A DNA stretch of 64,000 nucleotides, taken from contig JAFGYE010000052.1 in assembly GCA_016936255.1 (NCBI GenBank), forward strand, positions 1 to 64,000, given 5' to 3'. Below, one piece after another: positions 38,879 through 41,486 of the stretch. Origin of the DNA: Marinifilaceae bacterium. Its GTDB lineage: Bacteria; Bacteroidota; Bacteroidia; Bacteroidales; Marinifilaceae. The position numbers and the translations under genes are program-made. The notes beneath the pieces were generated by a model that did not search any database, had not been told where the DNA came from, and saw only the letters and a program-made list of their open reading frames with translations. Position 1 is the stretch's first letter. Every line of letters starts with the position of its first letter.

Positions 38879-38886
38879 TACTTTTG
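38879..38886 (+). promoter_or_regulatory. Possible -7 box of cmk
   Basis: TACTTTTG matches TAnnTTTG. A TTTG lies 14 bases upstream (38861-38864), shorter than usual, so this is only moderate evidence for a promoter between porQ and cmk. Confidence 0.45.
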
Positions 38887-38922
38887 TACCCAATTGCACA
38901 AAAAAACCGAGCAATAACTAGA

Positions 38923-39615
38923 ATGGATATACCTGAAAAGAAACTAATTATAGCAATCGACGGACATTCGTCGTGCGGAAAAAGTACTGTTGCCAAGGAT
39001 TTGGCAAAAAAAATTAAATACACTTATATTGACAGTGGTGCAATGTATCGGGTGGTTACTCTTTTTGCAATGAGAAACAACTTAATTTCCAGCGACAAAG
39101 TAGATGAAAATAAGTTGGCTCATTTGATCGATCAAGTAAACATCTCTTTTAAATACAACACTGAAAAACAGCGTCACGAGACTTATTTAAATGCTGAATT
39201 GGTTGAAGATGAGATTCGCCAAATGGCTGTTTCGAACAACGTAAGTTTGATTGCTAAAATCAAATTTGTTCGTGAGAAAATGGTGGCTTTTCAACGTGAA
39301 TTGAGCAAAGAAGGTGGAGTTATAATGGACGGCAGGGATATTGGAACTGTGGTTTTCCCAAATGCCGATTTAAAAATATTTATGACAGCCGATGTAGAAA
39401 TAAGAGCCATTCGCCGTTACAAAGAATTAAAAGATAAAGGAGAAAACATTTCATTGGACGAAATCAGAGAAAACGTTTCAAAAAGAGATTATATCGATGA
39501 AAACCGCGATGAAAGTCCGCTCCGAAAAGCTGATGATGCAATTGTACTTAACAACAGTCATTTAACTCCGGACGAACAATTGGATTGGATTGTTGATCGC
39601 ATGAATGAGCTGTAA
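38923..39615 (+). CDS. cmk: Cytidylate kinase
   Basis: This protein has 230 residues when started at the ATG at 38923 (MDIPEKKLIIAIDGHSSCGK); 13 earlier in-frame codons from a TTG overlap the promoter. The P-loop is GHSSCGKST, the CMP-site motif DSGAMYRVVT follows, and DGRDIGTVVFPNADLKIFMTA and RYKELKDKGENISLDEI are conserved. It phosphorylates CMP/dCMP. It lies immediately before ispH-pfkA (23 bases) in the porQ-cmk-ispH order. Confidence 0.95.
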   Translation: MDIPEKKLIIAIDGHSSCGKSTVAKDLAKKIKYTYIDSGAMYRVVTLFAMRNNLISSDKVDENKLAHLIDQVNISFKYNTEKQRHETYLNAELVEDEIRQMAVSNNVSLIAKIKFVREKMVAFQRELSKEGGVIMDGRDIGTVVFPNADLKIFMTADVEIRAIRRYKELKDKGENISLDEIRENVSKRDYIDENRDESPLRKADDAIVLNNSHLTPDEQLDWIVDRMNEL

Positions 39616-39638
39616 GTAATCAACCGACAGGATAAAAA

Positions 39639-41486
39639 ATGAATATTGAAATTGATCCTAACGCCGGATTCTGCTTTGGTGTTGTAAATGCCATAAATAA
39701 AGCAGAAGAAATACTGAAAGAGGACAATCAACTCTTCTGTATTGGTGATATCGTTCACAACAATATCGAAGTTGATCGTCTTAATGCTCAAGGGTTACAA
39801 GCCATCAATCACGATCAGTTTGCAAAACTGTCAGGAAAAAAAGTTTTATTTAGAGCACATGGAGAACCTCCAACCTCTTACGAAACAGCAAAAAAGCAAA
39901 ATATAGAAATTATTGATGCTTCGTGCCCGGTAGTTTTAAAACTGCAAAAAAAGATAAAAAAAGCATATCAGGAGATTAAGAAGTCAAACGGTCAAATAAT
40001 TATATACGGTAAAAAAGGTCATGCCGAGGTAAATGGTTTAGTCGGTCAAACCGAAGGCAAGGCAATTGTTGTTGAAAATACAGATGATTTAAAATTGGTG
40101 AACTTTAGCTTGCCGGTTGTTCTGTTTTCACAAACAACAAAAACCATTTCAGGCTTTGCTGAAATTTCAGAATATCTGAAAAAGGAATGCAAAAACAGCC
40201 TTAGTATTAATGATACAATTTGCAGAAAGGTATCGAATCGTGTTCCCTTAATTAAGGATTTTGCAGGCAAACACGATGTGATCATTTTTGTGAGCGGAAA
40301 AAAAAGTTCGAACGGAAAATTACTGTTCGATGTCTGTAAAAGAACAAATCAGAACAGTCACTTTATCACTTGCCCCGATGAACTGAATATGGACTGGTTT
40401 GCGAATGCGAAATCGGTTGGTGTAAGCGGAGCAACATCCACTCCCACCTGGCTGATGAATGATACAATTGAAAAAATAAAACTTGAAAATAAAAACGATT
40501 TAAGCATGTCTAAAATTAAGAAAATTGGAGTTTTAACTTCAGGAGGCGATGCTCCAGGAATGAATGCAGCTATCAGAGCTGTTGTTCGTGCTGCTATCTA
40601 TAACAAAATTGAAGTTGTAGGTGTACTGCAAGGATACGAAGGCTTAATTCATGGTGATTTTAAGAAAATGAAATCTCATGATGTAAGCAACATTATTCAA
40701 AAAGGCGGAACTATTCTTCGTTCGGCCAGAAGTGAAGAATTCAGAACTGTTGAAGGAAGAAAAAAAGCACATGAGCAAATGATTGCCAATAAAATAGATG
40801 CTCTTGTGGTTATTGGTGGTGACGGTACATTTTCAGGAGCCCGTATTTTTACACAGGAATTTGATATCCCTGTAGTGGGAATTCCGGGTACTATCGACAA
40901 TGATTTGTTTGGTACCGATTACACGATTGGTTACGACACGGCAATCAACACAGTAATTGATGCTGTTGATAAAATCCGCGATACTGCGAGTGCTCACAAC
41001 CGTTTGTTCTTTATTGAAGTAATGGGCCGTGATGCTGGTTTTATTGCTTTGCGAAGTGGAATTGCAACAGGAGCTGAAGCTATTTTAATTCCTGAAAAAG
41101 AAACCCACACTCAGGAATTGCAAAAATATCTTGAAAAAGGGTACAAAGAACACAAATCAAGCGGAATTGTAATTGTTGCCGAAGGTGACAAATCTGGTGG
41201 TGCTTACACAATTGCAAAGGAAATTGGGAAAGAACATCCGGAATACGACATTCGTGTATCTGTTTTGGGACACATGCAAAGAGGAGGTTCTCCATCGGCT
41301 TTCGACCGCGTAACTGCATCTACTTTGGGCGTTGCTGCTGTTGAAGCTTTACTGGATGATCAAAAGAGTATCATGGTTGGAATTGTTAACGGTGAGGTTT
41401 CACATGTTTCATTCAACAAAACCATTAAAAACAAGAAGAAAGTTAAGGATTCACTGATGAGTCTTAACGATATTCTTTCTATCTAA
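39639..41486 (+). CDS. ispH-pfkA: In-frame IspH-PfkA fusion (HMBPP reductase plus 6-phosphofructokinase)
   Basis: This single reading frame of 615 residues encodes two complete enzymes. Residues 1-285 are 4-hydroxy-3-methylbut-2-enyl-diphosphate reductase (last step of the MEP pathway), with cluster ligands Cys12, Cys96 and Cys195, His40, His74 and His128, and Glu130. Residues 290-615 are 6-phosphofructokinase with GGDAPGMNAA, GGDGTFSGA (Gly in the ATP-type position), PGTIDND (catalytic Asp) and GHMQRGGSPSAFDR. Met290 (codon at 40506) matches a normal PfkA start, and there is no stop between the two, with essentially no linker. It may be a true bifunctional protein, or PfkA may also start internally. 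Confidence 0.93.
   Translation: MNIEIDPNAGFCFGVVNAINKAEEILKEDNQLFCIGDIVHNNIEVDRLNAQGLQAINHDQFAKLSGKKVLFRAHGEPPTSYETAKKQNIEIIDASCPVVLKLQKKIKKAYQEIKKSNGQIIIYGKKGHAEVNGLVGQTEGKAIVVENTDDLKLVNFSLPVVLFSQTTKTISGFAEISEYLKKECKNSLSINDTICRKVSNRVPLIKDFAGKHDVIIFVSGKKSSNGKLLFDVCKRTNQNSHFITCPDELNMDWFANAKSVGVSGATSTPTWLMNDTIEKIKLENKNDLSMSKIKKIGVLTSGGDAPGMNAAIRAVVRAAIYNKIEVVGVLQGYEGLIHGDFKKMKSHDVSNIIQKGGTILRSARSEEFRTVEGRKKAHEQMIANKIDALVVIGGDGTFSGARIFTQEFDIPVVGIPGTIDNDLFGTDYTIGYDTAINTVIDAVDKIRDTASAHNRLFFIEVMGRDAGFIALRSGIATGAEAILIPEKETHTQELQKYLEKGYKEHKSSGIVIVAEGDKSGGAYTIAKEIGKEHPEYDIRVSVLGHMQRGGSPSAFDRVTASTLGVAAVEALLDDQKSIMVGIVNGEVSHVSFNKTIKNKKKVKDSLMSLNDILSI

Follow-up and report, generated by a model that had tools for sequence, protein, structure and literature searches.

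An in-frame fusion of ispH and pfkA in Labilibaculum, Marinifilum and their close kin

Fusions of IspH to other proteins are not new as a class, and the main text of Rao et al. 2015 (PMC4746011) presents IspH-RPS1, IspH-UbiA and an FBP-IspH from Chromera velia. The first of these (NCBIfam PRK00087) resembles the protein described here in that IspH occupies the N-terminus and is followed by an unrelated partner, but differs from it in that the partner is the ribosomal protein S1 and the carriers are mostly Firmicutes; the same source reports a similar IspH activity after removal of the S1 domains. As for IspH-UbiA, according to that account it likewise has an N-terminal IspH and a second enzyme at the C-terminus, whereas its partner is a prenyltransferase with a plausible pathway link and it belongs to sulfate reducers. 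The terms “phosphofructokinase” and “pfk” are absent from the main text of that paper (PMC4746011). No report of an IspH-PfkA fusion was found in the literature searched, which was open-access only and leaves absence from print uncertain, and while other IspH fusions, such as IspH-RPS1 and IspH-UbiA, have already been published, this pairing appears to be new.

IspH is essential, and PfkA governs the entry into glycolysis. The reading proposed here for their fusion, to which we give a probability of about 0.78, is that the loss of a stop codon between ispH and pfkA led to a 67-kDa IspH-PfkA protein in which each domain performs its own reaction, probably accompanied by some free PfkA.

The fused frame, its distribution and its junction

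The window, i.e., the whole stretch of 64,000 nucleotides that was analysed (a Marinifilaceae bacterium, contig JAFGYE010000052.1), contains on its forward strand (39639-41486) a single open frame of 615 codons, running from the ATG at 39639 to the TAA at 41484-41486 and comprising a complete IspH (residues 1-285), a four-residue linker (286-289) and a complete ATP-type PfkA (290-615). The features are the following:

38884..39615, + strand: cmk (cytidylate-kinase-like) open reading frame, the upstream neighbour, 23 nt before ispH (open reading frame; sequence recognition)
39639..40493, + strand: IspH (4-hydroxy-3-methylbut-2-enyl diphosphate reductase) domain, codons 1-285 (Pfam LYTB, NCBIfam PRK01045.1-1)
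40494..40505, + strand: linker N-D-L-S, codons 286-289, matching the old ispH stop and the old 9-nt spacer (gapless alignment to Ancylomarina)
40486..40508, + strand: start-like pfkA context round the ATG at 40506 (Met290), with A at -3, -12 and -13 (start-context score, fold energy)
40506..41486, + strand: PfkA (ATP-dependent 6-phosphofructokinase) domain, codons 290-615, and the stop TAA (Pfam PFK, NCBIfam PFKA_ATP)

The single IspH-PfkA frame announced in a preliminary description of this DNA is thereby borne out, and both halves exceed the NCBIfam cut-offs. Pfam LYTB matches residues 5-281 (E 1.9e-81, 273.7 bits against a cut-off of 24.5) and Pfam PFK residues 295-571 (E 4.7e-113), and the equivalog models for IspH (PRK01045.1-1, 352.6 bits against 276) and for ATP-type PfkA (PFKA_ATP, 423.6 bits against 371.35) are both passed. 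The IspH-RPS1 model PRK00087 scores 234.7 bits, below its cut-off of 624, the C-terminal half being a PFK and not S1 repeats. Cys12, Cys96 and Cys195, which the same description had named together with Met290 at 40506, are where it placed them and are cysteines in 36/36 aligned rows. Taking the cluster cysteines and the active-site His, Glu, Thr, Ser and Asn positions to be those of E. coli IspH, all 12 positions (C12, C96, C195, H40, H74, H128, E130, T167, S223, S224, N225 and S267) are invariant in the 36 rows. For PfkA, we take ATP-type enzymes to have Gly at two positions where PPi enzymes have Asp/Lys, besides a catalytic Asp, and the corresponding G396, G417 and Asp420 are kept in 36/36 rows; the full set of positions checked (12 in IspH and 11 in PfkA) is present in 12/12 fused rows. 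The calculated masses (67.2 kDa for the whole, 31.6 kDa for residues 1-285 and 35.1 kDa for residues 290-615) are close to the 67, 31 and 36 kDa given earlier, and the window's fused protein is a 100% match (rounded) to that of Labilibaculum euxinus.

With IspH single-copy in the window's genome (one PF02401 match), any ribosome that completes ispH would be expected to yield the 67-kDa fusion. Of the four PFK-type loci in the same genome, the fused one alone exceeds the PFKA_ATP cut-off; two of the extra ones score best with the “mixed” PFK model and one with the PPi-type model, all below the cut-offs of those models. These three loci (contigs C88, C72 and C73 of the genome; L002, L003 and L004) are of mixed or PPi-like type. 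A split relative, G024, has besides its ispH-pfkA pair a second close PfkA, 69% identical to the window's (C11:1599367-1601244 and C11:2299624-2300616).

The AlphaFold2 model of the window's protein, run as a monomer on a 36-row alignment, has a mean pLDDT of 84.9 and a pTM of 0.51, with residues 286-290 and the loop 356-360 under 50, and reads as two independent folded domains on a short flexible or disordered tether. A PDB sequence search at 1e-40 returned PFKs from bacteria and eukaryotes together with one IspH (3dnf). In the solved eukaryotic PFKs, one PfkA fold follows another in a single chain (residues 385-685 of 4omt_A match 278-569 of the query), which by analogy suggests that an N-terminal partner could in principle be tolerated by the PfkA fold.

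How widespread is the fusion? The unbroken frame occurs in 16 of the 56 genomes of the family, from the marine bacteria Labilibaculum, Marinifilum and their kin (by genus, eight in g1, four in g11, two in g14 and one each in g12 and g10), three of them single-contig assemblies (G007, G001 and G034), and one of the 16, G050, being a mosaic record that is to be discounted. The family search, at a threshold of 1e-80, matched 52 of the 56 genomes, the four unmatched ones being 63-80% complete, and ispH and pfkA are adjacent or fused in 50 of those 52; in the split family loci that were measured, there is an ispH stop followed by a spacer of 1-115 nt, with all three frames represented. In the genus search, eight of nine genomes match and none has a stop (the ninth is 63% complete). 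Further contig records gave 12 fused loci out of 19, all named Labilibaculum or Marinifilum, of which ten look like family genomes already counted and two Marinifilum records (L040, L041) are additional; among the rest, Ancylomarina sp. DW003 has a TAA at codon 286, two loci have both genes out of frame, and in four PfkA was not found within the fetched flanks. At the order level (392 genomes), 11 rows among the matches listed span both halves, and a stop is present in every one of them except the window's own. None of 20 order-level loci (17 long open frames and three in-frame pairs) is fused, two of them having no IspH match nearby; L058 and L070 have ispH and pfkA in different frames and hence are unfused. 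A search of 395 genomes of the phylum at 1e-165, strict enough to overlook a weak fusion, returned only the window's own genome.

The junction itself indicates how the two frames may have been joined. The preliminary description had pointed to residues 280 to 290 as the place to look for a stop in relatives, and that is where it lies: in five Ancylomarina genomes, the nearest split relatives, the junction reads AAA TAA ATT ATT AGC ATG TCG, i.e., a stop at codon 286, an in-frame 9-nt spacer and the pfkA start, while the TAA is absent from the fused group. Relatives in Marinifilum have AAA ATA ATT ATT AGC ATG TCA or AAA ATA AAT ATT AGC ATG TCA, and Labilibaculum has AAA AAC GAT TTA AGC ATG TCT and variants of it. 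By this alignment, the fusion is a lost ispH stop and the linker is the old stop plus the old spacer. The linker DNA is always 12 nt long in the 16 fused genomes, in seven distinct sequences with 10/12 positions varying, whereas 0/12 of the same bases vary in the five split Ancylomarina, at a similar divergence (pfkA fourfold-site identity of 0.43-0.83 in ten fused rows and 0.55-0.83 in Ancylomarina). For this reason, the spacer seems to have been freed from constraint on becoming a linker, except for the A at -3 and one T.

Translation of the fused gene and possible constraint on its junction

The mechanism proposed starts from an ancestor of Labilibaculum, Marinifilum and close kin that would have carried co-oriented ispH and pfkA with an in-frame 9-nt spacer, and that lost the ispH TAA. 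Translation from the ispH start would then run on to the end of pfkA, giving a putative 67-kDa protein, presumably expressed and active, in which a [4Fe-4S] IspH domain at the N-terminus is tethered by a short flexible linker to a C-terminal ATP-PfkA domain. Each domain most likely catalyses its own reaction, and the PfkA parts presumably assemble into their usual tetramer, with the IspH domains on its outside. Ribosomes would probably also start at Met290, in a Kozak-like and unstructured context, to give some free 35-kDa PfkA, with mixed tetramers as a possible outcome, so that every IspH molecule would be tied to a PfkA and the reverse would not necessarily hold.

The case for the internal start comes from the context of Met290. 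PMC6847099 reports that translation in Bacteroidota is adjusted through A at -3, -6, -12 and -13 together with low structure, and not through Shine-Dalgarno sequences. Start contexts were scored against a sample drawn from the window, two further loci of the same genome and loci from related Labilibaculum. It comprised 132 gene starts and 749 internal ATGs and included near-orthologues, only identical first 60 bases having been removed. On that scale, Met290 scores 5.64, a value matched by 0.93% of the internal ATGs and 41% of the gene starts, and its fold energy is -5.1, with only 2% of 300 internal ATGs as open. Of ten fused genomes scored, eight show a start-like and open context, which no more than 1.2% of internal ATGs equal, and Met290 with A at -3 is found in 16/16. 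That this context is kept suggests that ribosomes probably also initiate there, so that production of a free 35-kDa PfkA beside the fusion is plausible, and it may differ between lineages: the scores are weaker in L011 and L012 (-0.64 and 1.84, reached by 16% and 5% of internal ATGs) and there count against an internal start, although their fold energy is still open. In the linkers of L011 and L012, the former spacer reads GAGGAGTTAAGC / GAGGAGTTAAAC, which is Shine-Dalgarno-like before Met290 and odd for Bacteroidota. The internal initiation at 40506 suggested earlier is thus supported by sequence context and is compatible with a fusion protein, while the label “read-through” attached to it was wrong, since no stop codon remains. 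As for a separate pfkA promoter inside ispH, three near-matches (two of them overlapping) against 0.46 expected in shuffles make a weak case.

Could the fusion then be a near-neutral one with two products, in which the loss of the stop was tolerated, most PfkA comes from Met290 and the fused IspH brings no benefit? This explanation falls only a little short of even odds. Besides the start-like, open context in most scored genomes and the constancy of Met290 and of the A at -3, it agrees with the fact that the two reactions share no intermediate and no pathway step, so that any effect of the fusion would be on stoichiometry, stability or regulation and not on channelling. It is also compatible with the lack of stops: in a neutral simulation on a fourfold-site tree of 13 fused rows (tree length 3.93), the four linker codons stayed stop-free at all 13 tips with P 0.23-0.59, depending on start sequence and base composition, and with P 0.46-0.85 at half the rate. 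The lack of stops alone is therefore weak evidence and could be due to chance. Against near-neutrality stand the weaker context in L011 and L012, the loss of the A at -6 in Labilibaculum and near kin and the length of the junction, which has one value in 16/16 fused genomes, while the cmk-ispH spacer (39616-39638 in the window), used as a length control, has seven in the same genomes (-1, 6, 20, 21, 23, 24 and 26). In L014 and L024, the cmk stop overlaps the ispH start (TAATG). Constant junction length is better evidence than stop absence. Nonetheless, split Ancylomarina likewise keep a fixed ispH-pfkA spacer (9 nt in 5/5, with cmk-ispH spacers of 32-130 nt), so that the uniform length may be owed to translational coupling rather than to fusion. 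Eight codons round Met290 showed no clear sign of synonymous constraint, with 2.25 distinct codons there and 2.22 over the remainder of PfkA.

Origin of the fusion and possible coupling of its domains

Two further histories would fit the same junctions: the fusion may predate the split of Ancylomarina, with the stop regained there by fission, or it may have arisen twice. Together these are the less probable course, with some tree evidence in their favour. In the rpoB tree the fused rows fall apart and two changes are needed, and the PfkA tree does likewise, its starred branches forcing two; a single clade is unrejected by either (p-AU 0.119 and 0.138, respectively). In the IspH tree, on the contrary, the 13 fused rows form a single clade (99/94), with a p-AU of 0.0501 for the rival clade of Ancylomarina and Labilibaculum, and a weaker grouping of them (60/99, with a p-AU of 0.406 for the rival) comes from 23 ribosomal-operon genes. 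These comparisons, from which G050 was excluded as a mosaic, favour a single loss of the stop. In that genome (g14), 970 nt from the pfkA start (L013, positions 867-1836 from the ispH ATG) are identical to Ancylomarina DW003 (L016), with flanks 92-100% like G049; other mosaic loci are L111 and L126, the ribosomal-operon genes (12.7 kb) being 100% identical to those of DW003 and rpoB being the same as in DW003 outside a 67-bp patch with 35 differing bases. The pattern would be explained by either recent introgression or a chimeric assembly.

Has the loss of the stop been followed by selection for the fused state, one domain regulating, stabilising or placing the other, for instance by fixing the dosage of a glycolytic-control enzyme and of the last MEP enzyme? 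The frame has been kept though 10/12 linker bases changed, the fusion has been retained over the whole fourfold-site tree, and the sole IspH is joined to the sole canonical ATP-PfkA, all of which would fit such a coupling. It is nevertheless unlikely, given that the stop test is non-significant, that the linker is disordered at a pTM of 0.51 and that G050 seems to carry an Ancylomarina PfkA behind a fused linker, a combination that, if real, points to independent modules. The bifunctional protein proposed in the preliminary description is the natural reading of a conserved frame with its active-site positions kept, while any functional coupling beyond the joining of operon neighbours goes unsupported. 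Finally, removal of the stop by a sequencing or assembly error can be set aside, since chance or error is excluded by independent assemblies that share the open junction, in 16/56 family genomes, seven different 12-nt sequences and three single-contig genomes.

Comparison with known arrangements

With the loss of the ispH stop as the preferred reading, one of the closest systems is the pair of separate ispH and pfkA neighbours found in the same family, with the same genes, order and strand, from which the fusion differs by the stop and the 1-115-nt spacers. The set formed by Ancylomarina, Marinifilum and Labilibaculum gives a view of a fusion event at base level, in which a stop and a spacer would have become a linker and the old start codon was retained, and offers a clean case of how bacteria whose translation does not depend on Shine-Dalgarno sequences deal with a start site now enclosed within a gene. 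A natural IspH-PfkA also provides a ready test of a more general question: are fused operon neighbours functional partners (“Rosetta stone”) or tolerated accidents?

Among the described fusions, the one that touches the same metabolism is Chromera velia FBP-IspH (PMC4746011, Fig. 2c), where, as here, IspH is joined to an enzyme of the step between fructose-6-phosphate and fructose-1,6-bisphosphate; as presented in that figure and its text (PMC4746011), the partner is a fructose bisphosphatase and not a PFK, the fusion is named in the other order and the host is a eukaryotic alga. The likeness invites a further reading, on which we would place little weight: were all IspH throughout the fused group carried as an N-terminal arm of the only canonical ATP-PfkA, together with a shorter PfkA from Met290, the mixed tetramers, with variable numbers of Fe-S arms, might form a built-in connection, sensitive to oxygen and iron, from the fructose-6-phosphate step to isoprenoid output. 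If that were true, the algal FBP-IspH would represent a separate event that attached IspH to the same node of metabolism.
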